A stretch of 64,000 nt of DNA from Triglochin maritima (Eukaryota > Streptophyta > Magnoliopsida > Alismatales > Juncaginaceae), in the NCBI GenBank assembly GCA_963682175.1, contig OY821791.1:15652542-15716541 (forward strand), read 5' to 3'. Below are positions 6,279 through 39,665 of the stretch, piece by piece (positions within the stretch are counted from its first letter, which is position 1; every line of letters starts with the position of its first letter). Both the position numbers and the translations under genes were made by a program. The notes beneath the pieces were generated by a model. It worked only from the letters and a program-made list of their open reading frames with translations, was not told the DNA's origin and did not search any database.

Positions 6279-9024
<2,746 letters not shown>

Positions 9025-10245: not shown

Positions 10246-10985
10246 TGGTTCGGTCGACCGTTGGGTGTTTCGGTCGACCGAACAACGTCTAAATGATGCC
10301 TGTCCAGTAGGAAGATGTATTGTTCGGTCGACCGGTAGTTGGGTCGGTCGACCGATATTTATAAATATTAACTTGGTTCCCGGAACGGTCGAACGATGTC
10401 TGTGAGACGGTCGACCGTTATGCCAAATTTAAGCGGGAAAATAAAGGGTTACATTAGCCGGTCGACCGGTGTTGTTTCGGTCGACCGAACCCAGTATATA
10501 GATTAGACAGGCCTTCGGCCGACTGAGTGTGTGTCTCGGTCGACCGAACTGCGCAAGGTCGGTTCGAGCGTTGACCATCTAAACGGTCGACCGCTCTGGA
10601 TCCGGTCGACCGACCGCGTGCAGTTTTCCTGTAGTGAAGTGCTTGTTGATCCGGTTAACCGGAAGAGTTCCGGTCGACCGAATTCAGTGGGCAGGATTCA
10701 TGCAGGCATTCTTATCGGTTGAACGGACCCTGGTTCGACCGACAGGATATATATGTATATAAAATGTATAGCATAGACCTTCCAAACGGTCGACTGCTAG
10801 ATGACTTTTGTTCGACCAATTGGTAGGTATTTCGGTTGGCGTGGTTCGACCAGTAGACTTGTTTGTACAGTACCGTGTACTGTGTGGGGGACCGGTTGAC
10901 CGGTGTGCTTTTAGCGGTTGACCGATCTGCCGCAGGTTGGTGGATTTATCCACACGCGAGCCGTCGATGTCAGGTCGACTACCGG
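10246..10985 (+). repeat. Array of CGGTCGACCG palindromes in the 5' LTR of element A
   Basis: About 23 sites in 740 bp, 11 of them exact CGGTCGACCG, the rest one- or two-base variants such as CGGTTGACCG, CGGTTAACCGG and GGTCGAACG. Spacing is irregular, roughly 15-55 bp. Flanking bases are often complementary too (TTCGGTCGACCGAA, ACGGTCGACCGT, CCGGTCGACCGG), so symmetry extends beyond the core. The same array is in the other LTR at 16841-17580. Confidence 0.9.
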
Positions 10986-11463
10986 CTCCGAGGCGACGGT
11001 TGATTACCGGCTTTGAGAGCTACGGATTTCACCTTCGACGAAGGCGTATTATTGTACTACCATTTTTCCTCTCTTACCGAGCGGGGTGTGAGGGATGTGT
11101 ACCGTAAACCTTGGGCAGTTTGCGAGGGTTTAGCGGTAGGCCGAGGATGTTCCGGCAGGGTGCGCGCTAGGCGACTCTTGGGGGAGCAGTGGCTGTCGTC
11201 TGACCCGAGTTGTGTATTCGGCGGGCTGACTCGCTCCTTGGGTGCGGCGTGTACCGGGGGTTCCTTCCTGCACTTTTGGGGAGCAGTGGTGTCGACTGAC
11301 CCTTGTGAGGCAGCGGTGGACTGACTTGACCCTAGTGGCAGGAGTGGTTCAGTGCCGCGGAGGCGGTGAGGGCATTATTGTGGGCCCGAGGCGGATGATC
11401 ATGTGCATTGTATTGCATTGTCTTTAATTCCTTTTTATATTTTTAGGAGACTTGGTATACGGG

Positions 11464-11478
11464 GTTCCTGCAGGGAAC
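11464..11478 (+). other. Small conserved hairpin in the LTR of element A
   Basis: GTTCC-TGCAG-GGAAC between the conserved words ATACGGG and TCAGGCAT. Element B has GTTTCC-TTCT-GGAAAC in the same context (19371-19386). Stem bases differ while pairing is kept. The A copy repeats at 18059-18073. Confidence 0.6.
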
Positions 11479-11769
11479 TCAGGCATGTTTGTTGTTTGCA
11501 TTTCAGGTAGCGAGCAGGTTTAGAGTCAGGTGGTGACCGAGGACGGTGCCCCCGAGATCAGATCCTGTAGTTGTCAGTCTCTTCCTTTTGAGGTGATTAC
11601 ATATTGTATAGCTTTTGTCATAATCACAGTCAGTTTGTATAGTTGACTTCCACGTGGATCATATTTATATTATATATGTTGGTTTGTTTCCCGTGACGTG
11701 CCCAGTGTTGACCGTTGACGGTCTTTATTATTGTTTAAATTTTCCGTTGTTTTCGGGTACATTACAATT

Positions 11770-11782
11770 TGGTATCAGAGCG
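11770..11782 (+). promoter_or_regulatory. Primer-binding site of element A (tRNA-Met type)
   Basis: TGGTATCAGAGCG, three bases after the 5' LTR end. It is the standard initiator tRNA-Met site of plant LTR elements. Confidence 0.9.
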
Positions 11783-11888
11783 TTGATCGCGGCGTACTTG
11801 TCCAAAGAAACCACCTTGAGTTAGGAGTTAGGTCTAGAGGATCATGCATGCACAGATTATATTGATATTGTCTTGTTTCCTTTGGCAG

Positions 11889-14800
11889 ATGCTTCCTAGA
11901 CGGGGAAAGGCGGTTGCCCATACTCGCGGTGAGAGTGAGACTGCGAGGGATGAGGCTTGGGAGGATGAGCGTCGGACGTTGTTCGATACGGTCGGACGTC
12001 TGACAGAGATGCTACAGCAGCAGACGGCACAGACTGGGCAGACGGGGACTGGCGCTATGCATGACCGGTTTATGCGCCAGCATCCGCCTACCTTTCTGGG
12101 GCAGTACGACGCAGAGGCTGCGGAGGAGTGGATCTTCACTATGCAGAAGATCTTCAGTGCTATTGGTTGTCCTCCAGAGGCGAGAGTGGGCCTGGCTACA
12201 TATGTGTTGGGCGGTGCTGCGTCCAACTGGTGGAGGTCCACATCTGCAGTGGTGTTTGCGGACAGAGATGATATAGCCTGGGAGGAGTTCGTTGGCGAGT
12301 TCAACGAGCAGTATTTTCCGCAGCATGTCCAGGATGAGAAGAGGGAGGAGTTTCTGAGTCTTCAGCAGGGAGACATGACCCTGGCAGGCTACATCAGGAA
12401 GTTCAACGCCCTTGAGCGTTACTGTCCCGAGATGTATATTACACAGGAGCAGAGAGCAGGGAAGTTCGTCCGAGGGCTCCGGAAGCAGTTGAGGACGAAG
12501 GTGCTGACACACATGCCGAGCACGTTGGCCGATGCAGTGAAGAGTGCCTCTGTTCTTGATCGTGACTACAGGGAGAACTACCAGGATGAGAGGAGGCCAT
12601 CAGGTAGGTTCTCTGGGAGGCCAGGAGGTCAGACTGGAGGGAATCCGGGCAAGAAGCCCCGGTTCGAGGGAGCAGGAGTTGCAGTACCGCGACCTGAGCC
12701 TTGTGGTAGATGTGGGAGGTTTCACTCCGGGCCGTGCTTCACCCCTGGAGCATGTCATGGGTGTGGCCAGCTGGGCCACTTTATTAGGAGCTGTCCGAGC
12801 CGAGGAGCTGGGCCGAGCAGACCACCGGGTTTACCCGCACCAGGCAGAGGAGGAGGCGGAGGTAGACCACCTTTCAGACCACAGCAGGGGCAGCGCACTG
12901 GCAGAGTTTTCACCATCCAGGCAGAGGAGTCTCGGGATGGAGGCGCTGTCGTGGAAGGTACACTTCTTGTCGCAGGTTCAGTAGCTAGGGTGCTCTTTGA
13001 TTGTGGCGCGACACACTCGTTCATCTCAGAGCGATTTGCGGGAGTGTTGGGCTGTACCATTGCGATGTTGACTGCCACGTTGGAGGTCAGCACACCCCTG
13101 GGTCTGGTGGGCACTGTGGGGAGATTTGTCCCCGGCGCCACGGTTGTTTCGGGAGATCAGGAGTTTCCGGCAGACCTGGTCTTGCTACCGATGGAGGACT
13201 TTGATGTCATACTTGGGATGGATTGGCTGTCCCAATATGATGTTCGAGTCTTGTGCCGTGAGAAGAAGATTTTGATCCCGAGGAAGGGTTTGCCTGATAT
13301 TCTGATTAGAGGGATCAAAAGCAGAGGGGGTCGCATTATTGTATCTGCTGTGAGAGCTCAGAGACTGTTGCAGCAGGGTTGTGCAGCATTTCTGGCGACA
13401 CTTGTGGTTGCGGAGGCAGAGTCTCAGAGGCTAGAGGACATTGAGGTGGTGCAGGAGTTCGCGGATGTTTTTCCAGCGGAGATTCCAGGTTTACCACCAC
13501 ACCGGGAGTTGGAGTTCGGCATAGAGTTGGTAGCTGGTACTACACCACAGTCGAAGGCTCCATACCGGATGGCACCTGCTGAGTTGACAGAGTTGAAGAA
13601 GCAGTTGCAGGAGTTGATGGACTCTGGATTTATCAGACCGAGCGTCTCGCCTTGGGGTGCACCAGTTTTGTTTGTGAAGAAGAAGGACGGATCCTTGAGG
13701 ATGTGCATAGACTACAGGATGCTGAACCAGGTGACGGTGAAGAATAGGTATCCCTTACCTAGGATCGAGGACCTCTTTGATCAGCTGCAGTCAGCGAAGG
13801 TTTTCTCGAAGATTGACCTACGTTCAGGATATCACCAGTTGAGGATTCAAGATGAGGACATCCAGAAGACAGCCTTCAGGACGAGATATGGACACTATGA
13901 GTTCTTGGTGATGCCATTTGGATTGACGAATGCTCCGGCAGCGTTCATGGATCTGATGCACCGGACATTCAGGCAGTATATTGATATATTTGTGATTGTC
14001 TTCGTGGATGACATTTTGATTTATTCACCAGATGTGGAGCAGCACAGAGAGCATCTGAGGATTATACTCAGCATCTTGAGGGCTCAGCAGTTATATGCTA
14101 AGTTCTCAAAGTGCGAGTTTTGGCTGGACAGAGTGGCATTTCTCGGACACATTGTATCGGCAGAGGGGATATCAGTGGATCCGGCAAAGGTAGAGGCAGT
14201 GACACAGTGGAGGACCCCTACGAGCGTGACGGAGATTAGGAGCTTTGTTGGACTGGCGGGTTATTACCGTCGCTTCATCAAAGACTTCTCGAGATTGGCA
14301 GCACCACTGACGGCTCTGACGCAGAAGGGAGTCACTTTTGTTTGGTCGCAGAAGTGCGAGGACAGCTTTCAAGAGCTGAAAAGACTGTTGACCACAGCAC
14401 CAGTTTTGTCATTGCCGAGTGGCACGGGTGGATTCGTGATTTATAGCGACGCTTCAGGAGTTGGCTTAGGATGTGTACTTATGCAGCACGGGAGGGTGAT
14501 CGCGTACGCATCCAGACAGCTGAAGGTCCATGAGAGGAATTACCTGACACATGATTTGGAGTTAGCAGCAGTGGTTCATGCACTGAAGACCTGGAGACAC
14601 TATCTTTATGGCGAGCAGTTCGAGGTGTTTACAGATCATCAGAGTCTGAAGTACCTGTTCTCGCAGAAGGAGCTGAACATGAGGCAGCGCAGATGACTTG
14701 AGTTCATTTAGGACTATGACTTCACTATCTCTTACCATCCGGGGAAGGCGAACACAGTTGCAGACGCTTTGAGCCGGAAGGTAGAGGTATCAGTAGCAGG

Positions 14801-16331
14801 CCTATGCATTCAGGAGTGGAGACTGCTAGAGTCCTTGGCAGAGTGGAGGCCATTTGCTGATAGCTCTGAGGGCGCAGTGATTGCCGGAGTGAGAGTAGAG
14901 CCTCAGACAGTATCAGCAGTGATTCATGCTCAGACTACAGATGAGGAGTTGAGCAGTTTGTTACAGTTAGCTGCCAGAGATGGGTCAGACTTCAGAGTTG
15001 GAGTGGATGGAGGTCTGAGATTCAGAGACCGTATCTGGGTGCCGAAGACAGAGGACCTAAGACATGATATCATGGAGGAGGCACACAGATCGAGATATTC
15101 CATTCATCCAGGGAGCACCAAGATGTACAAAGACCTGCAGCGGAACTTCTGGTGGCGAGGTATGAAGAAGGACGTTGCAGACTTCGTGTCGAGGTGTTTG
15201 GTCTGTCAGCAGGTGAAGATCGAGCACCAGAGACCAGCAGGACAGATGCAGAGGATTGAGTTGCCTGAGTGGAAGTGGGAGCACGTGACGATGGATTTTG
15301 TTACGGGGCTACCGAGGACACGGAGATTCCACAATGCGATTTGGGTTATAGTCGATCGACTGACCAAGTCGGCGCATTTCTTAGCTATTAAGACCACTCT
15401 TGCTCTGGAGGGTCTAGCTAAGTTATATATTGATGAGATTGTCAGACTTCATGGCGTACCAGTCAGTATCATTTCAGACAGAGATTCCAGATTCACTTCG
15501 AGATTTTGGGAGAGTCTACACAGAGCACTGGGGACACGTCTGAAGTTTAGCACAGCTTTCCACCCACATACTGATGGCCAGTCAGAGCGGACGATACAGA
15601 CATTGGAGGACATGCTGAGAGCGTGTACACTGGACTGGGCCGGGCATTGGGATGAGCACTTGCCGTTGATAGAGTTTGCCTACAACAACAGCTACCACTC
15701 GAGTATTGGGATGACACCATATGAGGCATTATACGGGAGACCGTGTAGATCGCCGGTATGCTGGAGTGATGTGGGCGAGAGACAGCTAGTTGGACCTGAC
15801 ATTATTCAGTTGTATTCAGAGAAGGTCGACGTGATTCGGAGACGACTAGCTACGGCACAGAGCAGGCAGAAGAGTTATGCTGATACGCGGAGGCGTGAGC
15901 TGACTTTTGATGTAGGAGATCATGTCTTCCTGAAGATCTCACCTTCCAGAGGTGTGATGAGATTCGGGAAGAAGGGGAAGCTGAGTCCGAGATATGTTGG
16001 ACCTTTTGAGATATTGGATCGGGTCGGTGAGGTGGCATATAGGATTGCACTACCACCACAGTTCGCAGGACTTCACAACGTCTTCCATGTTTCTATGCTG
16101 AGGAAGTACGTGGCCGATCCAGCTCATGTGATAGAGATAGCAGTGCCAGAGATCCGGCAGGATTTGTCATTAGATGAGAGACCAGTTCAGATTGTGGATC
16201 AGATGGTACATCAGCTCAGGAGGAGAGCAATTCCGATGGTGAAGGTCAGGTGGCAGCATCACACGGTCAGAGAGGCTACCTGGGAGATCGAGGAGGATGT
16301 CAGGAAGCAGTATCCAGAGTTATTCCGGTAA
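11889..16331 (+). pseudogene. Element A gag-pol polyprotein, two nonsense codons
   Basis: One frame of 1481 codons. The start chosen is ATG 11889 (MLPRRGKAV), which aligns with element B's start (MPPRRVRPP); an in-frame ATG at 11844 adds 15 hydrophobic residues and is less likely. Approximate order: gag with WIFTMQKIF...NWWRST...FNEQYFP (residues 55-170); CCHC knuckle [14 protein letters not shown] (288); aspartic protease FDCGATHSF (370), where D-C-G replaces the usual D-S/T-G, a known variant in this lineage; reverse transcriptase with FVDDILIYS (704); RNase [11 protein letters not shown] (854); integrase HHCC zinc domain [16 protein letters not shown] (1066-1110) and D, D, E core (MDFVTGLP, IISDRDSRF, GQSERTIQ); C-terminal chromodomain-like VRWQHHTVREATWEIEED. 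TGA at 14694-14696 (Trp in the family) and TAG at 14709-14711 (Lys or similar) break it inside RNase H. Otherwise intact. Confidence 0.92.
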
Positions 16332-16367
16332 GTTACTTGTTTCAAATTTCGCGGACGAAATTCTTTT

Positions 16368-16380
16368 AAGGAGGGTAGAT
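16368..16380 (+). promoter_or_regulatory. Polypurine tract of element A
   Basis: AAGGAGGGTAGAT directly before the 3' LTR, preceded by the GACGAAATTCTTTT motif that also precedes element B's 3' LTR. It primes plus-strand synthesis. Confidence 0.85.
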
Positions 16381-18361
16381 TGTAATAACCTAATCTAAAA
16401 CATCTTAATTAACTAAACCTAAACCTAATTAACCCTAATTAATCATGCATGAAGAGGTGGAGGTGTTGGACATGTGGAGATTGAGGTGGATGACTTGGGT
16501 TGGAGGCTTTGGAGGTGGAATGGGAGATAAGATTTGAACTCTTCTATAAATAGGATTGTTAGATTAATTGCAAACGTTTTCTTCATCTTTTGCTTTTACC
16601 AGAGAGTGAGAGAGAGATATTCGGAGAGAAGAAGTAAAGAAGAAGAAGAAGAAGGAGAGAAGAAGTGAAGAAAGAGAAGAAGAAGTGGAGTGAAGTGGTG
16701 CAAGCTTGGGAGGCGTCTACAAACTCCTTCAAGGTATGCCAAGTCTTCATATTAACTCCCCAAGAGGTGTGGGAGTGTAGAGGACGGCGTTGGTGCCGTT
16801 TCTCCGGTGAAAACCCTACTGGACGGAGGTTGAAGACGACTGGTTCGGTCGACCGTTGGGTGTTTCGGTCGACCGAACAGCGTCTAAATGATGCCTGTCC
16901 AGTAGGAAGATGTATTGTTCGGTCGACCGGTAGTTGGGTCGGTCGACCGATATTTATAAATATTAACTTGGTTCCCGGAACGGTCGAACGATGTCTGTGA
17001 GACGGTCGACCGTTATGCCAAATTTAAGCGGGAAAATAAAGGGTTACATTAGCCGGTCGACCGGTGTTGTTTCGGTCGACCGAACCCAGTAGATAGATTA
17101 GACAGGCCTTCGGCCGACCGAGTGTGTGTCTCGGTCGACCGAACTGCGCAAGGTCGGTTCGAGCGTTGACCATCTAAACGGTCGACCGCTCTGGATCCGG
17201 TCGACCGACCGCGTGCAGTTTTCCTGTAGTGAAGTGCTTGTTGATCCGGTTAACCGGAAGAGTTCCGGTCGACCGAATTCAGTGGGCAGGATTCATGCAG
17301 GCATTCTTATCGGTTGAACGGACCCTGGTTCGACCGACAGGATATATATGTATATAAAATGTATAGCATAGACCTTCCAAACGGTCGACTGCTAGATGAC
17401 TTTTGTTCGACCAATTGGTAGGTATTTCGGTTGGCGTGGTTCGACCGGTAGACTTGTTTGTACAGTACCGTGTACTGTGTGGGGGACCGGTTGACCGGTG
17501 TTTTTTTAGCGGTTGACCGATCTGCCGCAGGTTGGTGGATTTATCCACACGCGAGCCGTCGATGTCAGGTCGACTACCGGCTCCGAGGCGACGGTTGATT
17601 ACCGGCTTTGAGAGCTACGGATTTCACCTTCGACGAAGGTGTATTATTGTACTACCATTTTTCCTCTCTTACCGAGCGGGGTGTGAGGGATGTGTACCGT
17701 AAACCTTGGGCAGTTTGCGAGGGTTTAGCGGTAGGCCGAGGATGTTCCGGCAGGGTGCGCGCTAGGCGACTCTTGGGGGAGCAGTGGCTGTCGTCTGACC
17801 CGAGTTGTGTATTCGGCGGGCTGACTCGCTCCTTGGGTGCGGCGTGTACCGGGGTTTCCTTCCTGCACTTTTGGGGAGCAGTGGTGTCGACTGACCCTTG
17901 TGAGGCAGCGTTGGACTGACTTGACCCTAGTGGCAGGAGTGGTTCAGTGTCGCGGAGGCGGTGAGGGCATTATTGTGGGCCCGAGGCGGATGATCATGTG
18001 CATTGTATTGCATTGTCTTTAATTCCTTTTTATATTTTTAGGAGACTTGGTATACGGGGTTCCTGCAGGGAACTCAGGCATGTTTGTTGTTTGCATTTCA
18101 GGTAGCGAGCAGGTTTAGAGTCAGGTGGTGACCGAGGACGGTGCCCCCAAGATCAGATCCTGTAGTTATCAGTCTCTTCCTTTTGAGGTGATTACATATT
18201 GTATAGCTTTTGTCGTAATCACAGTCAGTTTGTATAGTTGACTTCCACGTGGATCATATTTATATTATATATGTTGGTTTGTTTCCCGTGACGTGCCCAG
18301 TGTTGACCGTTGACGGTCTTTGTTATTGTTTAAATTTTCCGCTGTTTTCGGGTATGTTACA
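16381..18361 (+). repeat. 3' LTR of element A
   Basis: 1981 bp, offset 6595 from the 5' LTR with no length change. Most differences are transitions (for example 10196/16791 T to C, 11532-region GAG to AAG). It has the same internal array, at 16841-17580. Confidence 0.93.
16841..17580 (+). repeat. Array of CGGTCGACCG palindromes in the 3' LTR of element A
   Basis: Copy of the array at 10246-10985. Two of the few LTR differences create better palindromes here (CGGCCGACCG at about 17111 and GTTCGACCGG at about 17440). Confidence 0.9.
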
Positions 18362-18366
18362 GACAG

Positions 18367-18800
18367 AGTGCGCTGTTGTAGGTCGATTGGGGCGTTGACC
18401 ATCCAAACGGTCGACCGCCTGTTTGACTCGTCTGACCGATGACTTAAGTTGATTTGTGGTTGGGTTCGACCGAAAGTGGTTAGGTCAACCAGTGTTGTTT
18501 GGACGCATCGTGGATTTTACTGGTGGAATTCGGTCAACCGAGACTCCTCGGGGGTTCGACCGTTGATGATGTTGAGCGATGGTGGATTTCACTGGTGGGT
18601 TTCGATCGAACGGGTCCCCTTTACCGTTTGACCGATTGGTCGTTATGTTCGTTGAACCTGGGAGGTGACCTTCTAAACGGTCGACCGGTCCCTGACTTTG
18701 GTTCGATCGAACGTATGGAGTGTTGGTCGAACCAATTGCCATGTTTTGGTGAGATTCGATCGACCGGGACTCTTGGTTTGGTCGACCATTTGTGTCCAGT
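18367..18800 (+). repeat. Palindrome array in the 5' LTR of element B
   Basis: Together with five or six sites at 9640-9785, about 20 GGTCGACC-like sites (for example ACGGTCGACCGCC near 18408, GTTCGATCGAACGT near 18700, ATTCGATCGACCGG near 18755). They are more degenerate than in element A, in keeping with its age. The 3' LTR copy is at 38260-38860. Confidence 0.8.
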
Positions 18801-18904
18801 TTCTCACATTGGAGGTGCGGTTGTTGTGGTCGTCCGTGTGATGCTAGTTGTGGTACCGATGTTCTTCCGACAAGTGTGCTAGTGAGGTCGAGTTTTGAGG
18901 TGGT

Positions 18905-19290
18905 TGGGTGAAAGAGCACTGGAGCCCCGTAACTGTCGTGAGAGTTGTGGTTGGGTGAAAATGTCCTGGAGCCCAGCTAGTCTGTGCGGGGTTGGGTGAA
19001 AAAGTCGTGGAGCTCCGTAGTGCGTTCAGGTTGGGTGAAAAAACCCTGGAGCCTGACTATGGACCGTGTGATAAGGGTTGGGTGAAAAAGCCCTGGAGCC
19101 CTTAGACGTTCGAGTTGAGTGAAAGAGCCCTGGAGCCATGGTTGTATCGTGGTAGTTGTGGTTAGGTGAAAAAGCCCTGGAGCCCAGCTTGACGACATTG
19201 TGTGTTGCGGTGGTTGGGTGAAAAAGCCCTGGAGCCCCGTAACTGTGGTGTGTGCTGTGGTTGGGTGAAAAGGCCCTGGAGCCCAGCCTT
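18905..19290 (+). repeat. Minisatellite in the 5' LTR of element B, about 9 units
   Basis: Units of roughly 38-50 bp share the core GGTTGGGTGAAAAAG followed by CCCTGGAGCCC; the linker between cores varies in sequence and length. About eight units are in the 3' LTR (38950-39295). The core is much better conserved than the linkers. Confidence 0.85.
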
Positions 19291-19370
19291 GTTGTTTATA
19301 CTTTTCTTTGTTGATAGAATTGTATGCTAGAGTATTTCAGTTTCATACATTGTAGAGTTTTGCATACGGG

Positions 19371-19386
19371 GTTTCCTTCTGGAAAC
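19371..19386 (+). other. Small conserved hairpin in the LTR of element B
   Basis: GTTTCC-TTCT-GGAAAC, flanked by ATACGGG and TCAGGCAT, the counterpart of 11464-11478 in element A. Confidence 0.6.
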
Positions 19387-19547
19387 TCAGGCATTGTTGC
19401 ATGTTTGCTTTTCAGGCTGTGATCGGTGTTAGGGGTGTGGTGACTGAGGAGAGGAACACCGCTACCAGATCAAGCTTTCTCTCGTTTTGAGGTCGGAGTG
19501 ATTACTTGTATTTGTTGTATAGCCTTTTTGATGTAATCACACTTTTG

Positions 19548-19548
<1 letters not shown>

Positions 19549-19588
<40 letters not shown>
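19549..19588. repeat. TA microsatellite
   Basis: About 20 TA units near the end of element B's 5' LTR; the 3' LTR has a shorter, interrupted version at about 39560-39582. Confidence 0.9.
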
Positions 19589-19589
<1 letters not shown>

Positions 19590-19685
19590 TGGTGCACCTG
19601 TTTCCTTATATTTGAGTAATATCCTTTGCTTTGTTTGTATGTTATAAAATTTTAAATTCTTCCGCTGTTTGAGGATGTTACAACT

Positions 19686-20117: not shown

Positions 20118-21593
20118 TGTAGGATCGTATGGGTCAGTTATGCTAATCACAATTAATCCTAAATACCCACTTGTTTAACTATCAAAGATAAGTGCAGCGG
20201 AATTTAAACAAACAAGCGAGTAAAGGAAAAGAAACACAAACCACAATCGACACGGGGGTTTTACAGAGGTTCAGCCACCGCCTACGTCCTCTCTTGCAAG
20301 CTCCGCTCGACACTTCGAGCTCCGCTCACGTCTTCACTATCCACTCCCCGTTCCGGGCCGGGAGAGAACACCTTTTACAAAACACGCTCCACAAACACCC
20401 TCGTGAGCTTGACTTTCTTCTCTCACAATCCGAGAGGAACACTTCGGACTTTCACCGAAGTCCTTGCTTCTTTTACAAGTGAGAACTTGAGTGGAATACA
20501 CTCTCTAGCTTGAGCACATTTGAATGAGATTGGATTTGTGATTAAAGTGTGGAAGGTTTGAGGCTTTGAGTGTGTTGGGTTTCTCTCTAATGTATTGGAC
20601 AAGTAGTGGTAGGAGTGTTGTGTTAAAATGTGTTTTACAACTCTATTTATAAGCCTTAGAGAGAATAGAGCCGTTGGGATTGATTGGGTGTTAGTTGATG
20701 TGTGATACACAAAATAGAAATTTGTAGGACCCAATTCAGGATGAATTCGGTCGACCGGATCGGGCTGAACGGTCGACCGTTAGGCAGTTTTGAACTAAGT
20801 TCGGTCGACCGGTTAAGCAACGGTCGACCGCCCAACGCTACGATTTAGGTACACTTAAGTGATCGGTCGAACACCTATAGGGAAACGGTCGACCGATTTG
20901 TACCGGGCACTTTGGGGTTGACAAACAGTGATGTATTCGGTCGACCAAAACAGGTCTAGCGGTCGACAGTTTTTCAACAGGAGATTTGGGTTTGTCAAGA
21001 GATGGACAAACGGTCGACTGATCATGGTCCTCGGTTGACCGATACATGAAATGTATTTGGGGTATAATTGGTTTAATACGAATACGACCGTTGGGTATAT
21101 ACGACAAAAGTAACGGTCGGGAAAATAAGTTCAGACGGTCGACCGAAAGGCAAAACACGGTCGACCGAAACTAGACAGTGAAACACAAACAGGATACTTG
21201 ATCATTCGGTCGACCGAACGGCATGTTGCGGTCGACCGAATGTGGGCAGACAGTTAGGGTCTAAGTTTGGTGATCTATTGAAGTCCATATTATGTGAAAT
21301 TTCATGTGTGACTTCTATAAGGAACCTAGTGTGTGTTTAAGTTGATTTTAGCTCAAGTATGCTCAATTTACACATGTTCCGAAAGACTCAAAGAAATACA
21401 AAATACATGTCTTCAAAAGAGCTTGATTACATGTCTTGACTTGATTTTCCTTTCTTCCTTGAGTCTTGATCACCTGTAGAGGTTAGCACAAAGCAATATA
21501 CATGCAATGCAATATGTGTGCTACTCTACATTATATAATTAAGATTAGGTTAATTAAATCATCAAAACATAGATTAACGCCAAAAAGCCAACA
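20118..21593 (-). repeat. 3' LTR of element C
   Basis: 1476 bp; in element orientation TGTTGGC...CCTACA. Its inner end adjoins a G-rich polypurine tract. A TATA-like box lies on the minus strand near 20655 (rc of CTATTTATAAG). Because no second LTR exists here, the outer end at 20118 is inferred from the TG...CA rule and the break in B's gag. Confidence 0.75.
20745..21245 (-). repeat. Palindrome array in the LTR of element C (Copia)
   Basis: About 15 sites in 500 bp, most of them full CGGTCGACCG (for example near 20748, 20770, 20800, 20820, 21135, 21157, 21206, 21229), the same word as in the Gypsy elements A and B. In element orientation the array lies upstream of the TATA-like box, in U3. 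Confidence 0.88.
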
Positions 21594-21611
21594 ATCTCCC
21601 CCTTTTTGATG
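21594..21611 (-). promoter_or_regulatory. Polypurine tract of element C
   Basis: The plus strand reads ATCTCCCCCTTTTTGATG; its complement (AAAAAGGGGGAGAT) directly precedes TGTTGGC, as in SIRE-type Copia elements. Confidence 0.85.
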
Positions 21612-22249
21612 ATGGCAACCTATATCTTAACTATATCTTAATACATGGAATTTGTATATGTAAACTATGCATATTAATGCTCCCCCTATGAATGTGCATA
21701 GTTTTTGTTCAATTTTATTCCAAATTCCAAGTTACCCCCTTAATTATCTCTCCCCCTTTGACATCCATCAAACAATTGATATGAATAAAAACAAAGATTA
21801 TACAATTGAAGGTCAATGTGGATGTCTTGTTATGAAGTCGCTCCCCCTAAATTTTGCACTTCATTACTCTAACAAAATGATATTGATTAAGCTCCCCATA
21901 TAGATATGAATATGATTTTGCAATTTGGTTCAATTTTTATTTGCTCCCCTATTAACATCAAGTGAATATTACAATTAAGCATGTGATGTTTCATTTCCCT
22001 TTTTTACATCCATTTAGACAATTTGACTCTAAACATTATGAATGTTATTAAAACATAAAGATTTGCAATGAATGGGTATATGATATGTCAATTGAGCATA
22101 TAACCTAGACTAGAACCAATTTGATTGATAAAGTTTAGAGGATAGGAATTTATACCAACTTGAGGCTTGAATTGGTTCCAATCTCATTTGGTGATGCAAG
22201 CGGATTTGAATTTAACTCTTAAGCTCGCCCGGTCACCACCGATTTCTTC
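21612..22249 (-). other. 3' non-coding region of element C
   Basis: Between the gag remnant and the polypurine tract, where pol would lie in a full element. AT-rich, with recurring CTCCCC words (21681, 21734, 21753, 21840, 21891, 21952) on the plus strand, that is GGGGAG-like purine words in element orientation, resembling repeated polypurine tracts. No coding. Confidence 0.6.
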
Positions 22250-23869
22250 CTCAAGCACCTACAAGTGTAGATTTAGGTACCCAAACAACTTTGGGTCCTT
22301 GAATATTAGCTTTGGGAACCCAAACCATTTTGGTTTTAGGAGCCCACACACTTGAGGAAGTATGTTTTACAACTAAGTGCTTTCCATTCAAAGTTGAATA
22401 AGATGCATGGTTTTTCAATTTTGCATTAAATCCTAAACCATGTTTTTGCAAAGATTGTTTTTGACTTCCTAATAGCATGTTAAGCATCTTAGTTCCATGT
22501 GTGAACCTTTCTAAATCTTTTTTAATTGCACATTGCAAGCTTGAAGATCTAGTTGTTCACAATCTATAGGTGTTGCTTTTAATTTATCAAAATTTGATGC
22601 ATAATTTTCTAGTTTAGCAACCACCTCATTTTTCTCATTCATGCATGTTTCAATTTGGCTTTGGAGATCTTTAATTTGCTTTCTAGCATTTTTGTTCTTT
22701 TCACAAATGATCTGATATTGTTTAACTAAGTCATGAAATTCATTTTGAAGCTCAACATGTGTATAAGTTTCTTCATTAACACTAGAATGTGAGCTATCAC
22801 TATAATATGACTTAGTTGAGCAAGAATTACTAGAGCAAGAGTTAGATTCTACCTCACTTTGATCTTCAATAGCCATGAAACATGAGTGAGCCACTTCTCT
22901 TCTACTTTGCAAGGAAGACGACGATGATGATGGTGATGAATAATCATCCAATGTAGCCTTGTGTGCTTCCTCCTTCCTTTCTCTTCTCCTCTCCCTTCTC
23001 TCCTTTTTCTTCTCCCATTCTTTTCTGTCATTTTCACTCTCCTCCTTCTCCTTTTCTTTTTCTCTCTTTTCATTTCTTCTACCTCTTCTTTGATTCTTTT
23101 CTCCCATATCCTTCTTGAGGTATTTGAATAAGTCTTTGGCTAGGACTTCAATGCCCTCATCTTCTACACTCCTTCTTGGTTGGTCAATGTTTGCATGTAA
23201 TGACAAGAAGGGTTTGTTCCGTGAAGCTTCCTTCTCCTTTCGATGGTTGATTTGGAGTTCATACGCCATCAAATTACCAATTAATTCCTCCATTTTGAGT
23301 TGGGAAAGGTCGCGTGCTTCTTCAATTGCGACCACCTTGTCTTCCCAATCGTGTCTTAACGACCGGAGGAATTTCCTTGTCATCTCTCCTTCATTTAATC
23401 TTCTTCCAAGAACCAAAAGAGAGTTAGTGATATCGGTGAAGCGAGTGTTCATTTCGCTTATGTTTTCACCGATTTGCATAGAAAAAATCTCATATTTATG
23501 CATGAGGAGACTAATGCGGGTTTCCTTAGTTTTACTATCCCCCTCATGATGCATTTGTAGTCTATGCCAAATCTCATATGCACTAACACAACCTCTAATC
23601 CTATTATATTCACCCTCATTAAGGCCACAATACAAGATGTTCATGATTTTCGAATTCATTTCGATTTCTTTCATTTTGGGTCTTGTAAGTGAATCTAATT
23701 CATCTTCATTTGGGGGTGTGTATGGATTTTGGAGAAACATCCAATACTTAAGGTCATTTGAAATTAGGAATATTTTCATCCTATTCTTCCAATAATCATA
23801 ATTTGACCCATTTAGCAAAGGAGGTCGAGTTGTGCATAATCCCTCTACATGATTACATGTGCTAGCCAT
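22250..23869 (-). pseudogene. Element C gag-like protein (Copia), truncated
   Basis: ATG 23869 (MASTCNHVEGLC), open to 22513, about 452 residues. The N-terminal part has PPLLNGSNYDYWKNRM, IWHRLQMHHEG and FTDITNSLLVLGR, the DUF4219/UBN2 gag domain of SIRE-like Copia elements. A middle stretch (about 22960-23110) is extremely rich in Lys, Glu and Arg, then Ser-rich, then a coiled-coil-like segment. After a frame change near 22520 the C-terminal VWVPK repeats (VWAPKTK, VWVPKAN, VWVPKST) appear, which normally sit just before protease; here non-coding 3' sequence follows. No zinc knuckle was noticed. The protein could still be made to 22513, but no enzymes remain in this copy. Confidence 0.8.
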
Positions 23870-23906
23870 GCTAAAAATACGATTAAGTAATGAATTTAGC
23901 GCACAA

Positions 23907-23921
23907 GGCTCTGATACCAAA
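23907..23921 (-). promoter_or_regulatory. Primer-binding site of element C (tRNA-Met type)
   Basis: The complement reads TTTGGTATCAGAGCC. It forms the extreme right end of element C, where a 5' LTR would be expected. Confidence 0.8.
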
Positions 23922-25142
23922 CGAAGACACAGCCAACTGGTGGACCACATCTACGGTGGTGTTTGAGGGCAGGAGTGACCTAAGCTGGGAGGAATTCTTG
24001 CGGGAGTTCAATGAGCAGTATTTCTCAGAGCATGTCAGCGATGGGAGGAGAGAGGAGTTCATGACCCTCGAGCAGGGAGAGACGACCCTGGAATAGTATA
24101 TCTAGAGGTTCAACGTGTTGGAGCGTTACTTTTCGAAGATTTGTGTGACGCCTATGCAGAGGGCGAGGAAGTTCGTACGGGGGCTCAGGAAGCACCTCCG
24201 TACTCAGGTGACATACAGTATGCCACAGACGCTGGCCGATGCCGTGAGGTTTGCTACGATCATCGATCAGGACGATGAGCAGATTTATGCTGAGGCCAGG
24301 AGAGCATAGGGGAAGGTTAGTGGACGTCCAGGTGCTCTGCTAGCAGGGAATCCGGGCAAGAGGCCCCAGATTGGAGGAGGTGGATCACGCCAGCCTGAGG
24401 TGTGCAGAGGTTGTGGTCGAGTTCACTCCGAAGAGTGTTGGGGTTGTTCTGGGGTTTGTCACGAGTGGGGCAAGCCATGCCATTTTGTTAGAGATTATCC
24501 GAGTGGGCCCGGTGGGTCCAACAGGCATCCAGGGCCGCCAGCAGCAGGCAGAGGTGGAGGTCGCTGTCCTTTTGCGCCACCACAGCAGGGTCAGAGGACT
24601 GGACGAGTCTTTACCATCCAGGCGGATGACGCGAGAGACGCCAACACGGTGGTGGAAGGTACGCTCTTTGTTGTTGTGTTGAATGCTAGAGTGTTGTTTG
24701 ATTGTGGGGCTACACATTCGTTCATTTCGGAGAGATTTGCGAGTGTGTTGGGCCATACCCCTACGATGTTGACTGCCACGTTGGAATTCAGCACACCCTT
24801 GGGTCTGCTGGGCATTGTGGGGAGCTTCCTCCCCGGTGCCACGATTGTTTCGGAAGATCAGGAGTTTCCGGCAGACTTGATCTTGTTGCCGATGGAAGAC
24901 TTTGACGTCATACTGGGGATGGATTGGCTATCCCCGTACGATGTGCGAGTCTTGTGCCAGGAGAAGAAGATTCTGATTTCGAGGAAGGGTCTACCTGATG
25001 TGCTGATCAGGGGGACGAAGGACAGAGGAGGCAGAGTAGTCGTATCAGCAGTAAAGGCACAAAAGTTGTTACAGTAGGGTTGCAGAGATTTCGTGGCCAC
25101 ACTAGTAGTTCCAGATCCAGAGGCGAGGAGATTGGAGGACAT
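23922..25142 (+). pseudogene. Element B gag C-terminal part, zinc knuckle and protease
   Basis: Continues gag as NWWTTSTVVFEGR...WEEFLREFNEQYF (23930-24040), stops at TAG about 24094, then GLRKHLRTQV, TAG at 24307, the Cys/His region CRGCGRVHSEECWGC...GKPCHFVRDYPS (24400-24500; knuckle degraded) and the protease motif FDCGATHSF (about 24698) with the second motif VILGMDWLS. It stays open to TAG 25075-25077 (Gln in element A). It closely follows element A's sequence. It is interrupted at 25142 by element D; the last 114 bases reappear at 32531. Confidence 0.85.
25029..25142 (+). repeat. 114-bp flank duplication, left copy
   Basis: Part of element B between protease and reverse transcriptase, AGGCAGAGTAG...GAGGACAT, directly followed by the first base of element D's LTR. 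Identical to 32531-32644 apart from one base (TTACAG here, TTGCAG there). Confidence 0.93.
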
Positions 25143-31295: not shown

Positions 31296-31315
31296 CCTCC
31301 CCGGCAACGGCGCCA
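31296..31315 (-). promoter_or_regulatory. Primer-binding site of element D (tRNA-Asp type)
   Basis: The complement reads TGGCGCCGTTGCCGGGGAGG, the primer-binding site known from Athila/Tat elements, six bases inside the LTR. Confidence 0.9.
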
Positions 31316-31321
31316 AAAACT

Positions 31322-32530: not shown

Positions 32531-32644
32531 AGGCAGAGTAGTCGTATCAGCAGTAAAGGCACAAAAGTTGTTGCAGTAGGGTTGCAGAGATTTCGTGGCC
32601 ACACTAGTAGTTCCAGATCCAGAGGCGAGGAGATTGGAGGACAT
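32531..32644 (+). repeat. 114-bp flank duplication, right copy
   Basis: Starts at the base after element D's LTR and then continues into the rest of element B's pol. It shares the nonsense TAG of the left copy, so B already carried that mutation before the duplication. Confidence 0.93.
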
Positions 32645-35500
32645 TGAGATAGTCCAGGATTTTCCAGAGGTATTTTCCAACGATGTCTCCGGGTTGTCGC
32701 CTCAGAGATAGATTGAGTTGGGTATTGATTTGGTAGCTGGGACTACGCCGCAGTCGAAGGCTCCGTATAAGATGGCACCTGCTGAGCTGGCAGAGATGAA
32801 GACGTAGTTGTAGGATCTGATGGATATTAGGTTTATCCGACCTAGTGTCTCGCCTTGGGGAGCGCTGGTACTCTTCATGAAGAAGAAGGATGAATCGTTA
32901 CGGATGTGTATCGACTACTGGATGCTGAACAAGGTTACCGTTAGGAATCAATATCCTTTGCCAAGGACCGAGGACATGTTTGACCAGTTGCAGTCAGCGA
33001 AGGTGTTCTCGAAGATTGATCTGCGATCCGGTTACCATCAGTTGAGGATCAGAGAGGCAGATGTACGGAAGACAGCTTTCAGGACGAGGTACGGGCATTA
33101 TGAGTTTTTGGTGATGTCGTTCGGGTTGACGAACGTGCCTGCAACATTTATGGAATTGATGAACAGGACGTTCAGTTAGTACCTCGACCGGTTTGTGATT
33201 GTTTTCGTGGACAGCAATTTGGTCTACTCGCCAGATGTAGAGCAGCACCGAGAGCACTTGAGAGTTGTACTTGGTATTTTGAGAGATCATCTGTTGAATG
33301 GCAAGTTTTCGAAGTGCGAGTTCTAGCTGAGCAGTGTTGCTTTTCTGGGGATTGTATCAGGAGCTGGGATTTCAGTAGATCCAGCGAAGGTCGCGGCCCG
33401 TGACGCAGTGGAGAGCCCCGACTAGTGTGGCAGAGATCAAGAGTTTTATGGGTCTGTCGGGTTACTATCGCCGTTTTATTCAGGATTTCTCCAGGTTGAC
33501 TTCGCCTCTGACGGCTTTGACGCGGAAGGGCGTCAAGTGTATGTGGTCCCAGAAGTGCGAGGACAGCTTCCAGGAACTGAAGAGTCGGCTGACGGCTGCT
33601 CCAGTTCTGACACTTCCCAGTGGCAGCGGTGGGTTTGTGATTTACAGTGACGCGTCAAGCGTTGGGCTGGGATACGTACTCATGCAGCACGGGCAGGTGG
33701 TTGCGTACACTTTGAGATAGCAGTAGTGCACACATTGAAGACTTGGAGACATTATCTGTATGGCAAGCAGTTCGAGGTTTTCACAGATCATCAGAGCCTA
33801 AAGTATCTGTTTTCGTAGAAGGAGCTAAATATGAGGCAGCGTAGATGGCTCGAGATGATTAAGGATTATGAGTTCACCATCTTGTATCGTCTAGGGAAGG
33901 CAAATTCGATTTCAGATGCTTTGAGCAGGAAGGTGGAGGTTACCGCGGCACGTCTTTGTATCCGGGAGTGGAAATTGGTTGAGGCATTGTCTGAATGGAG
34001 ACTGTTCACCGATGAGTCGCGAGGTGTAGTGATTGCTGGGCTGAGAGTGGAGCCTCAGATGGTCTCGAGTATTATTCAGGCTCAGAGTTTAGATGATGAG
34101 TTAGCTGGGTTGTTGCAATTAGCTGCCAGAGATGGATTAGACTTCAGTATTGAAGTCGATGGTGGACTGAGATTCAGGGGGCGTGTCTGAGTGCCGAAGG
34201 GAGGAGATCTGAGGAAGGACATCTTAGAGGAGGCACACAGATCCCGATATTCGATCCACCCGGGCAACACGAAGAGGTATAAAGATCTTCAGAGAATTTT
34301 CTGGTGGAAGAGGACGAAGACGGAGATAGCAGAGTTTGTTGACAGATGTCCGATTTGTCAGCTGGTGAAGATTGAGCATCAGAGACCTGCAGGAACGATG
34401 CAGAGGATCGAGCTTCCAGAGTGGAAGTGGGAGCACGTGACGATGGATTTTGTCATCGGCCTGCCGAAGACGAAAGGATTCCATGATGCGATTTGGGTTA
34501 TAGTCGATCGACTGACCAAATCGACACACTTCTTAGCTATCCGGACCACTTTACCTCTGGAGGATCTAACTAAGTTGTATATTAAGGAAATTGTCAGACT
34601 TCATGGAGTGCCTATGAGTATTATTTCCGATCGAGATCCTAGGTTCACTTCTAGATTTTGGGGGAGTTTGCAGCAGGCTCTGGGGACTCGATTGAAGTTC
34701 AGTACGACATTCCATCCGCAGACAGATTGTCAGTCTGAGAGGACCATCCAGACATTAGAGGATATACTACGAGCTTATACTCTGGATTGGTCAGGACATT
34801 GGAATGAGCATTTGTTGTTGATAGAGTTCGCCTACAACAACAACAACTACCATTCAAGCATTGGGATGTCACCGTACGAGGCTCTGTACAGGAGACCGTG
34901 TAGATCAACGGTATGCTAGAGTGATGTAGGCGAGAGATATCTAGTTGGTCCTGAGATTGTGTAGATGTATGCCGAGAAGATTGATGTGATCAGACAGAGA
35001 CTAGTGACAACTCAGAGTAGGCAGAAGAGCTACGCTGATAGGCGTAGGCGAGAGTTGAGGATTGAAGTGGGCGATCATGTCTTCCTGAAGATTTCACCAT
35101 CTCGTGGAGTGATGAGGTTCGGGAAGAAAGGGAAGCTCAGTCCGAGGTATCAGACCGTTTGAGATTCTCGATCGTGTTGGAGATGTTGCCTACAGGGTTG
35201 CGCTGCCACCGCAGTTTTCAGGTCTTCACAACGTCTTCCACGTTTCGATGCTGAGGAAGTACGTAGCTTTCTCATTTGATTCAGTTGGAGGTTCCTGAGA
35301 TCCATCAGGATTTGTCTCTTGAGGAGAGACCTGTAGAGATTGTGGATCGGATGGAGCATCAGTTGAGGAGGAGGACCATTACAATGGGGAAGGTCTGGTG
35401 GCAGCACCACAGTGAGTGAGAGGTCACTTGGGATATTGAGGAGGAGGTTCGGAAGGAATTCCCGGAGCTGTTTGGTGAGTTTGCTCTAATTTCGAGGACG
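32645..35500 (+). pseudogene. Element B pol: reverse transcriptase, RNase H, integrase, decayed
   Basis: Colinear with element A's pol. Reverse transcriptase at 32820-33330: [36 protein letters not shown]. The catalytic motif near 33205 reads FVDSNLVYS, so the second catalytic Asp is replaced by Ser. RNase H at 33400-33850 includes [15 protein letters not shown]. Integrase at 34190-35160 has the [16 protein letters not shown] zinc domain, MDFVIGLP and IISDRDPRF, with a Gly to Cys change in the DGQSE motif (DCQSE). There are stops at about 33178, 33718, 33817, 34188, 34917 and 34963, and a frameshift after 35150 in the C-terminal region. The chromodomain end (35390-35480) is still recognisable. 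Dead copy. Confidence 0.88.
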
Positions 35501-35524
35501 AAATTCTTTTAGGATGGTGGATTA

Positions 35525-35996
35525 TGAGATCCTAATCCTAATTGGGTTTTATTTGTTGTTTAGGTGGTGTTTAGGAGGAAATGGGATGGATGGCTGAGAT
35601 GGAGTGGTGTTGGAGGAGTGGTTTAGATGAAAGGTGGGTTGGTTAAGGTGGTTTTTTTTCTCTCTCTCTCTCTCACTCTTCTCTCTTCCACTCTCTCACG
35701 CATCTCTCTCCCCCCCAACGATTGTGCTCCGACGTGGGCGCGTTCTCCGGCGAGGAGAAGTGAGGTTTGGCGAGTGTTGGTTGGTGGAGGTGAGTGTTGG
35801 TTGCTAAACCCATCCCTTGTTTCTTCTTCTTTTTCTCTCTCTTAACCTTCCTCGTTTCCAGTTTGTGTGGAGATTGACAGAGGTGGAGGTGTGGCTGTGA
35901 AACAGCGAGGAGGTGCGAACGTTGATCAAGCGAGCGTTTGTCGATGGATCGTTATTTTACGAGAAGTGCTTGAGGAAACGCCGTCGAGGTTCTTCG
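35525..35996 (+). repeat. 3' LTR of element B, left part
   Basis: Begins TGAGATCC after the polypurine-like stretch AGGATGGTGGATTA; aligns with 9025-9497. Interrupted by F after TTCTTCG. Confidence 0.85.
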
Positions 35997-38166
35997 TGAA
36001 AGGAATGTGTTCTAAAAGTTTTACTTTTATATGTCAATTATTATGAATTGAATGTGCAAACATTTTGTTCCTTGATTATGGTATTCGTCTTTTGGAAGTG
36101 TTAAGGAAGAGGCGCTTGGTCCTTAACCGTAGAGCTCTAAAAGATAATGGTTTACATAAATCAAAAGTTATTCACAATCATGGTAACTAACATGGAACAT
36201 TAATCACAGAGATAAGATTGTCGTGTTGGTCAACGATTGTTGTAGCTCTACAAATAATTGACGAAACAAGTATATAAAAGTGGAAAAGATTACTTTTATA
36301 TATTGAATAGACCTAACAAGTAAAACATTATGGAATTGTGTTTCATGTCATTAATGTTTTACTGTGTCTTGGATCCTAAGATATGAGACTTATATCTTTT
36401 CACTCAAGAAGTGCTTAATTTGATTATTGTCAAAAGCTATCAATGAGTGTAGTGATAAAGGCAATAGTTGGTTGAACATGACTTGTGCTGGAAAAGATAG
36501 CTAGTCAAACGATTATCATTGCCCCTCTTAATTGAGTGATGATATTAGTAGGCCCTTGATAAAGCAAAATTATAATGTGCACAATGTAACTTCAGTTAAG
36601 TTACATAGTTATAATTAGCTTAAAGAGATCAAGAAATGGATATAATACAAAGATGAGACATTTCTACTTCGTATATATTCTTAATATAATGAGGCAAGGG
36701 ACGGACACAAGTGGTGCACCTACATCACTAAATGGATCGTGTTTTGGTTCGGGTAGAACAAAGACATCTATGCTAATTGGGTAACTATAATGTGTAGCAA
36801 GATACCACTTATAGTTTGAGATAAAGTGTTTAATATCACTGCCAATTTGGCTTAGATCCTCCTATAGGTCACACCACAAAACTGGGAAACAAGATGTTTG
36901 ATTTTACGTTCATATGATGTGTCGGGTTTCATGTGAAAATATGACAGATGTGGTGAATGAATAGAATCAATATGTCATGAGAATTGACATAATTAGAATA
37001 ATAATAAATTCATATGAGGTGTATATATTATGGGGTGTAATAATTAAATATTACATATGATAATATATTACATAAGATGTGAATTTGCTAAAACCCCCAA
37101 AAGATCAAATTTTGTTGGAAATAAATCCAAAATTTGACAGGCAAAATCGGGGTCAAACACGGTGAACCGTTCATGGTTCGGTCGACCGGTGCATCTTCGG
37201 ATCGGTTAACCGAATAGGGAACCAGTAAGCACAATTGGTTGACCGAGATTGTCTGGAGTGCATGGACATTCAGGTTCGGTTAACCGAGTGTGCACGGTCA
37301 ACCGAGAAGTAGTATTCTCGGTAGATCGAAGGTGATACGGTCATCCGATTACTATGTCCCAGGAGCGATTCTGGTGGGTCAACGGTCGACCGAGTAGAAG
37401 ACGTGGTTCGTCTGAATTCTTCCAGGGAATATTTCTCATAAGGATTCGGTCGACTGTTTAGCTCACGGTGCACCGAACATGTGTTATAACCGAACGGGTC
37501 GGTTGACCGAATAATTCTCGGTCGACCGAACAAGAACGATTCTGCCTGAATTATTAAGAGATTAATTAGATCATGGACGGATTAATTCCAGATTTAATTA
37601 AAACGTTTTTGTGGGTGCTTATGTGAAAATTAGAGATTAAGTTTAGGAGAGAATAAGCAAGAGATCATGGCTAAAGAATATTTATTGATAAGGATGTTTT
37701 GGGAGACTATAAAAGGACCCATACTCCTACTTGTTTAATACTAATGCAAAAATTCTTTCTCTCATTAATCTCGCCACAATCACCACGAAAATCTCTTAGT
37801 AAATTTGAGTTTTAGAGATAAGAATCTCAGGAGCTTAAAGAGTGGTTATTAGTTTGGTTCTAAACCTTATTAGAGATTGATTGCCTAGCTCCTTTCTCTC
37901 TAATCTTGTTTAGAGTTTGGTGAACAGTCGGAGGCAAATCCGTGGATGATTCAATGGGCAACGCGACTCCGGATCTTCAAAAAAGTTTTAGAGAACCTTT
38001 AGGTATGATTCTACATTTGTGGTTTATTTTAATAAATGTAGGGTTGCATGTTATTAGAATAAAACACAAAGTTATGTACATAAAATTGTTGAAAATATGA
38101 AATTGATCTTGTATGTTGTATTAAAATTTTAAAATATATACATACATAGGGACACGAAATCCTACA
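35997..38166 (+). mobile_element. Element F: solo-LTR-like insertion in the 3' LTR of element B
   Basis: 2170 bp with TGAAAGG...CCTACA ends and no internal coding or primer-binding site. It holds a TATA box (TATAAAAGG at about 37698-37706) with about 13 palindromic words upstream (37150-37535). Flanks CTTCG and CTTGT do not match, and 32 bases of the B LTR (present at about 9498-9529) are missing at the join, so it did not arise by clean integration, or the edge has since been deleted. The superfamily is not determinable from an LTR alone. Confidence 0.6.
37150..37535 (+). repeat. Palindrome array in element F
   Basis: Includes TTCGGTCGACCGG (37178), TCGGTTAACCGAA (about 37204), TTCGGTTAACCGAG (about 37275), ACGGTCGACCGAG (about 37383), CGGTTGACCGAA (about 37500) and CTCGGTCGACCGAA (about 37517). 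TA-centred and TCGA-centred versions both stay symmetric. Confidence 0.85.
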
Positions 38167-39665
38167 CTTGTGGTTGTAGTCCACTTTTGTTGTGTGAGTA
38201 TTTGAAAGTCGAGAGTAGGCCGAAAGGCTTGTCGCAAGCAAACTTACAGCAGATTTTACTGCTGGATCGGTCGACCGGTTGGTGCAAACGATCAACCATT
38301 CCTAGTGAGAATTTGGGTTTCTGCCTCACACCGGTCGAACAATGCCCTTGGGCGGTCGACCGGTTGTGCATTTGAGGCAAGCCTGGTTGGTTTCGGTCGA
38401 ACGGGGCCCCTTTGCCGTTCGACAGTGTGCACCGTTGTAGGTCGGTTGGGGCATTGACCATCCAAACGGTCGACCGCCTGTTTGACTCGTCCGACTGATG
38501 ACTTAAATTGAATTGTGGTTGGGTTCGACCAAAAGTGAATAGGTCGATCGGTGTTGTTTGGACGCATCGTAGATTTTACTAGTGGAATTCGGTCGACCGA
38601 GAGTGCTCGGGGGTTCAACCGTTGATGTTGTTGAGCGATGGTGGATTTCACTTGTGGGTTTCGGTCGAATGGGTCCCCTTTACCGTTCGACCGATTGGCC
38701 GTTATGTTCGTCGAACCTGGGAGGTGACCTTCTAAACGATCGACCGGTCCCTAACTTTGGTTCGACCGAACGTTTGGAGTGTCAGTCGTACCAATTGCCC
38801 TGTTTTGGTGAGATTCGGTCGACCGGGACTCTTGGTTCGGTCGACCGTTTGTGTCCAGTTTTGCACATTAAAGGTGCGGTTGTTGTGGTCGTCCGTGTGA
38901 TGCTAGTTGTGGTGCAGATGTTCTTCCGACAAGTGTGCTAGTGAGCACGGGGGTGGTTGGGTGAAAGAGCCCTGGAGCCCCGTAACTATTGTGAGAGCTG
39001 CGGTTGGGTGTAAAAGTCCTGGATCCCAGCTAGTTTATGCGGGGTTGGGTGAAAAACTCGTGGAGCTCCGTAGTGCGTTCAGGTTGGGTGAAAAAGTCCT
39101 AGAGCCCTAGACGTTCGGGTTGGGTGAAAGAGCCCTGGAGCCCTGGTCGTGTCGTGGTAGCTACGGTTGGGTGAAAAAGCCCTGGAGCCCAGCTTGATGA
39201 CGTTGTGTGTTCGGTGGTTGGGTGAAAAAACCTTGGAGCCCCGTAACTGTGGTGTGTGTTGTGGTTGGGTGAAAAAGTCCTGGAGCCCAGCCTTGTTGTT
39301 TGTGCTTTTCTTTGTTGATAGAATTGCATGCTAGAGTGTTTCTGTTTCATGCATTGTAGAGTTTGGCATACGGGGTTTCCTTCTGGAAACTCAGGCATTG
39401 TTGCATGCTTGCTTTTCAGGCCGTCATCGGTGTTAGGGGGGGTGGTGACCGAGGACAGGAACGCCACTACCAGGTCCAACTTTCTCTCGTTTTGAGGTCA
39501 GAGTGATTACTTGTATTTGTTGTATAGCCTTTTTGATGTAATCACACTTTTGAAATACTCGGATATATATTATATATATATGTTGGTGCACCTGTTTCCT
39601 TATTTTGAGTAATATCCTTTGCTTTGTTTGTATGTTATAAAATTTAAAATTCTTCCATTGTTTGT
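38167..39665 (+). repeat. 3' LTR of element B, right part
   Basis: Aligns with 9530-9785 joined to 18367-19670. It shows the uninterrupted GACAG site (38421-38425) used by element A in the other LTR, the palindromes (38260-38860) and about eight minisatellite units (38950-39295). The terminal GAGGATGTTACA of the 5' LTR is not found; similarity fades after CTTCCATTGTTTG (about 39665). Confidence 0.82.

Follow-up and report, generated by a model that had tools for sequence, protein, structure and literature searches.

Why do retrotransposons of two superfamilies carry the same 10-bp palindrome, in many copies, in their long terminal repeats (LTRs)? The question is raised by a 64,000-nucleotide stretch of the Triglochin maritima genome (contig OY821791.1, positions 15,652,542 to 15,716,541; hereafter the window), in which the Gypsy elements A and B and the Copia element C have arrays of the word CGGTCGACCG in their LTRs; an insertion, F, has one too. 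The best explanation, which we hold with moderate confidence, is that the arrays are LTR cis-regulatory modules for a shared host DNA-binding factor that would be dimeric and used by both superfamilies. The elements and arrays are located as follows.

9023 to 19683, plus strand: 5' LTR of element B (9023-9786 and 18362-19683), interrupted by element A
9628 to 9785, plus strand: first part of the B 5' LTR array; three pairs of sites, with the A insertion at the end of the last site
9786 to 18361, plus strand: element A, a complete Gypsy element, putatively of chromovirus type, recognized by its LTR pair, target duplication and Pfam domains
9786 to 11766 and 16381 to 18361, plus strand: A LTRs, 1,981 bp each, 99.1% identical
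10251 to 10981, plus strand: A 5' LTR array; 11 exact and 4 one-mismatch sites, 23 in all when three mismatches are allowed
16846 to 17576, plus strand: A 3' LTR array, the same array as in the 5' LTR; 11 exact and 5 one-mismatch sites
18380 to 18788, plus strand: second part of the B 5' LTR array; 2 exact and 2 one-mismatch sites
20118 to 21593, minus strand: 3' LTR of element C
20748 to 21238, minus strand: C array; 9 exact and 4 one-mismatch sites, its seven pairs alternating perfectly
35523 to 39664, plus strand: 3' LTR of element B (35523-35996 and 38166-39664), interrupted by F, its end lost
35997 to 38165, plus strand: F, an unassigned insertion in the B 3' LTR
37160 to 37528, plus strand: F array; 3 exact, 3 one-mismatch and 7 two-mismatch sites, with 19 bp as the usual distance within pairs
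38268 to 38847, plus strand: B 3' LTR array; 6 exact and 3 one-mismatch sites, nine pairs at up to three mismatches

The word is present in 42 exact copies, with 25 more at one mismatch. All 67 of these sites lie within seven array stretches that total 3,715 bp, and none lies elsewhere in the window; within C, none was found outside the LTR array. The initial annotation had envisaged a count against shuffled controls. At the scale of the window, exact copies averaged 0.017 in 60 dinucleotide shuffles and never exceeded 1. Permutation of the half-word yields 30 possible palindromes, and the 29 others have no exact copy in the window. A test for amplified dyads covered 15 regions. Four of them stood out, all with CGGTCGACCG: F, the C LTR, the distal B LTR and the LTR of A. 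The remaining 11 regions showed no excess over shuffles; they include three further LTRs, namely D and the pair belonging to a Gypsy element at 42-53.5 kb. Counted without overlap at up to three mismatches, the sites number 23 in A, 18 in the B 3' LTR, 14 in C and 13 in F, in agreement with the roughly 13 to 23 copies per element noted at first. Each of the four thus holds at least eight copies, the number used to recognize a repeated-motif (RM) box in Sireviruses. Sites with two or three mismatches also occur outside the arrays (104 in about 60 kb), so that about 4 of the 68 array sites counted at up to three mismatches could be due to chance.

Clusters of CGGTCGACCG also turned up in viral contigs (23 stretches) and genome contigs (at least 119), and were taken as chance. 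Among the matches listed, the genome contigs belong to bacteria and archaea, many of them GC-rich actinobacteria.

The spacing of the sites, initially described as irregular, has an order: the sites form pairs, and short gaps take turns with long ones along the site listing. At up to two mismatches, 30 pairs of sites are 18-23 bp apart in A, B (both LTRs), C and F, compared with a mean of 10.6 and a maximum of 20 in 2000 trials of random placement. Exact sites alone give 9 such pairs (random mean 2.1, maximum 7). When distances of 16-23 bp are allowed, 31 non-redundant pairs are obtained, 28 of them at 19-22 bp. Most long gaps measure 32-57 bp; those of 104 bp (C), 64 bp (F) and 24 bp (A and F) fall outside this range. 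At up to three mismatches, gap alternation reaches 49 of 60 in total, the permuted mean being 31.9 and the maximum 47 (5000 permutations). It is perfect in B (16/16, reached by 0 of 5000 permutations) and in C (12/12, reached by 3 of 5000). At up to two mismatches it is still perfect in C, with 14/17 in A.

The sites stand out from the DNA between them. Within the arrays, their mean identity to the word is 0.86-0.96, and the flanking columns are mostly at 0.2-0.4, near random. Symmetry hardly extends beyond 10 bp: flank complementarity is near expectation, with 20/43 against 13.8 expected at the second base and 4/43 against 12.1 at the third. The linkers within A, B and F align no better than shuffled linkers. 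These unlike linkers rule out a simple tandem duplication of the unit for A, B and F; the argument is weaker for C. Between the two B LTRs, differences affect 28 of 224 site positions and 35 of 562 linker positions (Fisher p 0.005). A local mutation cold spot is ruled out, as the sites have changed more than the linkers in this LTR pair. For DNA rich in CpG, faster mutation after insertion would be expected. Sites that decay faster than linkers here and yet stay alike indicate upkeep before insertion, which would point to selection.

How could such arrays work? In the proposed unit, two 10-bp palindromes are separated by about two turns of the helix, and such units recur at intervals of roughly 55-75 bp. 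A single palindrome would most simply be bound by a host protein in dimeric form, and one pair may accept two dimers cooperatively, presumably in an activating role. A common host factor, on which A, B, C (and F) would depend or by which they would be targeted, would account for their use of one word. As long as a lineage replicates, selection would retain its sites and let the linkers drift; after insertion and silencing of a copy, its CpG-rich sites would decay. In a more specific and more tentative version, which we regard as possible, a host protein that places two dimers on paired CGGTCGACCG about two turns apart would have been recruited by both superfamilies, giving the Copia and Gypsy families of a single genome one regulatory grammar, independent of promoter position.

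Several observations weigh against a shared host factor. The binding protein is neither known nor found, and a literature search on candidate plant factors (for example LOB-domain proteins) returned nothing, so none is named as likely. As noted initially, the A array is downstream of the TATA box (TATAAA at 9950), and the C and F arrays are upstream of theirs (TATAAA at 20651 on the minus strand and at 37708, respectively); a plain upstream enhancer therefore does not fit all of them. In B, no TATA[AT]A was found in the first part of the LTR. Alternation is borderline in A (15/21, reached by 314 of 5000 permutations) and absent from F (6/11, reached by 2901 of 5000). The perfect alternation of B needs three-mismatch sites and becomes 9/12 at up to two mismatches. 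Pair spacing has two peaks, at 19 bp (9 intervals) and 22 bp (13 intervals), F being mainly at 19 bp and B and C mainly at 22 bp, which is not one fixed helical phase. In C, the linkers resemble each other slightly more than shuffled linkers do (9.40 vs 8.58, standard deviation 0.27). Finally, the decay test relies on one element, with its single LTR pair.

Descent is the first alternative. Template switching or recombination may have carried an array from one lineage to the other, Sirevirus and Gypsy, so long ago that the linkers have ceased to align; the shared word would then reflect common origin and not independent recruitment. We consider such a transfer unlikely; the apparently rapid change of the linkers is the reason for retaining it. 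Even A and B, whose internal DNA is 71-75% identical, retain only short homology in their arrays (short-word BLAST gives one match of 39 bp with 89.7% identity and another of 61 bp with 70.5%), so that a loss of homology elsewhere is conceivable. The best A-C match has 72% identity over 54 bp and runs with transcription in both elements (E 2.4e-5, two sites in each), the best B-C match covers 46 bp at 74% (E 1.6e-4), and the third pairs in A, B and C all start with CGGTCGAAC. However, both E-values are inflated because the sites themselves match. Once the sites are masked, the A-B, A-C, A-F, B-C, B-F and C-F comparisons all fall within 100 shuffles, whereas the two B LTRs score 347 against a shuffle maximum of 26. 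A more permissive test, in which sites were kept and linkers shuffled 300 times, seems to favour transfer for one pair: the B 3' LTR outscores all but 1/300 shuffles when compared with C. The opposite orientation also scores high (6/300), and A-C is reached by 131/300. The other comparisons are reached by 7/300 (A-B), 22/300 (B-F) and 171/300 (C-F). Because 1/300 is also obtained when the B 3' LTR is set against the other B LTR in the wrong orientation, this test was set aside as over-sensitive and carries no weight in our conclusions.

The short homologous segments weakly suggest that the A and B arrays share ancestry. No convincing homology links C and F to A and B or to each other. The initial view that common descent of the LTRs cannot explain the arrays is thus not confirmed for A against B.

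A second alternative is that the selected feature is an RNA structure, in which the two palindromes of a pair would form a stem with a loop of 9-12 nucleotides, serving the element or feeding small-RNA silencing, a role put forward for maize Sireviruses. The arrays do fold better than dinucleotide shuffles (z -8.2 for A with 20 shuffles, -7.8 for C and -6.8 for F with 100 shuffles each), and small RNAs map to palindrome clusters of maize Sireviruses in the available part of PMC10760457. However, any set of repeated palindromes folds well. Four of the seven double changes within pairs keep Watson-Crick pairing, and the inner half-sites deviate somewhat more than the outer ones (37 vs 25). Complementarity within pairs (259/310) is nevertheless that of pairs dealt anew within the array (257.9, observed value reached by 1990 of 5000 sets); with G-U pairs counted, 2520 of 5000 sets reach the observed value. 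Hairpin covariation in the site pairs is therefore not significant, in a test whose power is low since the sites seldom vary. As complementarity is the same in re-dealt pairs, recognition as DNA is favoured over a paired stem, and RNA structure would be a by-product that could still feed silencing. Selection for the structure itself appears quite improbable.

We judge it very improbable that the sites serve silencing or anti-silencing, as targets either of the methylation machinery or of a VANC-like protein encoded by the element: the CpG-rich arrays, with three CpGs per site and 58 of the 150 site deviations in all seven stretches being CpG transitions, would suit such a role, but no candidate protein was identified, a Pfam search of 10 of the 25 frames of at least 150 amino acids having given retroelement domains or nothing.

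The CpG observed/expected ratio is 1.27-1.63 in the arrays, 0.53-0.86 in the array linkers and 0.72 in the window, and the GC content of the arrays is 0.49-0.53. Judged by this ratio, the arrays are CpG-rich islands of the kind described for Sirevirus RM boxes. One deviation, C9>T (CGGTCGACTG), recurs at 10516 and 10787 in A, 21011 in C, 38488 in B and 37447 in F. Over all stretches, with LTR copies counted twice, it occurs 11 times and its mirror G2>A never, which may indicate a strand asymmetry.

A shared host factor remains the best supported of the three options raised by the initial annotation, because the sites are kept within unrelated linkers, C and F do not align convincingly with A and B, and no significant covariation is seen. 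That annotation had counted A and B as independent cases, and had neither the pairing nor the published Vitis motif.

Which elements, then, carry the word? Three further features bear on the identity of A and C.

9781 to 9785 and 18362 to 18366: A target duplication GACAG, 5 bp
21602 to 21847, minus strand: four exact GGGGGAG polypurine tracts ahead of the C 3' LTR
22511 to 23950, minus strand: open frame with a copia-type gag domain (PF14223, E 1.3e-24), the gag of C

C has the hallmarks of a Sirevirus, from its copia-type gag, its GGGGGAG tracts and its LTR junction, as the initial assignment to a SIRE-like Copia element had it. Two extra GGGGAG variants stand above the exact tracts, up to 21950. 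The last tract is followed by ATTGTTGG at the 3' LTR junction; tracts together with an LTR that starts with TGTTGG are characteristic of Sireviruses. Near the LTR end, where a polyC-rich integrase signal is expected, only a short CCC was seen by eye. The copy holds gag only, and pol is missing. It also lacks a 5' LTR, its primer-binding site (about 23907-23921) abutting B. A scan for a target duplication at the true LTR end found none, its only matches beginning inside the B gag. C (20118-23921) therefore consists of a primer-binding site, gag, polypurine tracts and a 3' LTR. A reverse-transcription intermediate has this shape ahead of plus-strand transfer, and C may have been captured by end joining.

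In A, the Pfam domains follow the Gypsy-type order gag, protease, reverse transcriptase, RNase H and integrase. A C-terminal Chromo match is weak (17.8 bits, under the 25.1 cut-off, E 0.0033). The target site of A lies within the B palindrome array (9776-9786 and 18362 of the window), where GACAG forms the final five nucleotides of a degenerate site. Plant LTR elements are reported to favour palindromes weakly in the available part of PMC6911290. For B, the coordinates first given were incomplete, the LTRs beginning at about 9023 and 35523. For F, neither exact ends nor a target duplication were found, and no second LTR was found within the window.

A and B have further features in common. A donor-like GGTATG precedes the array by about 111-112 bp in both (10139 in A, 9517 in B), and an acceptor-like TTTCAG/TTTTCAG (11506 and 39419) lies in the best conserved A/B block (11452-11565 vs 39363-39477). 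With these two signals, the A and B arrays could lie inside a leader intron. The same block contains a small inverted repeat (11464-11480 and 39373-39391), GTTCC...GGAAC in A and GTTTCC...GGAAAC in B, so that a matched change affects both arms. In the B LTRs, a second degenerate tandem repeat (approximately GGTTGGGTGAAAAAGCCCTGGAGCCC) is found downstream of the palindrome array, at 18890-19290 and 38952-39291.

Since 2010, the Sirevirus repeated motifs have lacked an established function. Should unrelated Gypsy LTRs of the same genome indeed keep this word, paired in the same way, the cause should lie in the host. A paired probe could then serve as bait for the protein, with the question whether that protein drives or silences large parts of the plant genome.

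Three known systems can be compared. In VANDAL transposons, the targets of the VANC proteins are short motifs with many dispersed copies inside a mobile element, as is the case here. The type of element differs, and the Pfam search of 10 of the 25 frames, which was not aimed at VANC, showed no VANC-like gene; the analogy thus finds no support here.

Maize Sireviruses are closer. In these Copia elements, palindromes cluster in the LTRs, a strong structure is predicted and there is a small-RNA hotspot (available parts of PMC5311732 and PMC10760457), and the Copia palindrome is also the top motif in structured regions of Helitrons (PMC10760457). Their word is different (CACCGGAC...GTCCGGTG), and no Gypsy case is given in those parts, the term gypsy being absent from the available text of PMC10760457.

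The closest system is the RM box of the Vitis Sirevirus, whose repeated motif is CGGTCGACCG itself in Table 3 of Bousios et al. 2010 (PMC2829016). In the available part of that paper, 13 Sirevirus repeated motifs are tabulated, 12 of them with a CGG-CCG core; the Vitis element has 10 copies in its 3' LTR and 2 upstream of env. The motifs lie just upstream of the TATA box, and a regulatory role was proposed. The data set was Ty1/copia and the motif was called Sirevirus-specific. Among the matches listed, this is the single retrotransposon paper with a full-text match to CGGTCGACCG. The words pairs, spaced and hairpin are absent from its main text in the part available, and the paired layout appears to be unreported. 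No report of this motif in Gypsy LTRs was found among the matches listed in the open-licence literature, so its occurrence there appears to be unreported as well. Since C has Sirevirus hallmarks and the word is in print for a Vitis Sirevirus, C is a known case, and its array is the only one here whose host element is recognized as a Sirevirus. An identical CGGTCGACCG, a palindrome with the CGG-CCG core, is shared with A, B, C and F, and the CpG-rich cluster upstream of the TATA box is shared with C and F. In contrast to Vitis, the word here also occupies the LTRs of two Gypsy elements, in one of which, A, the array is downstream of the TATA box.

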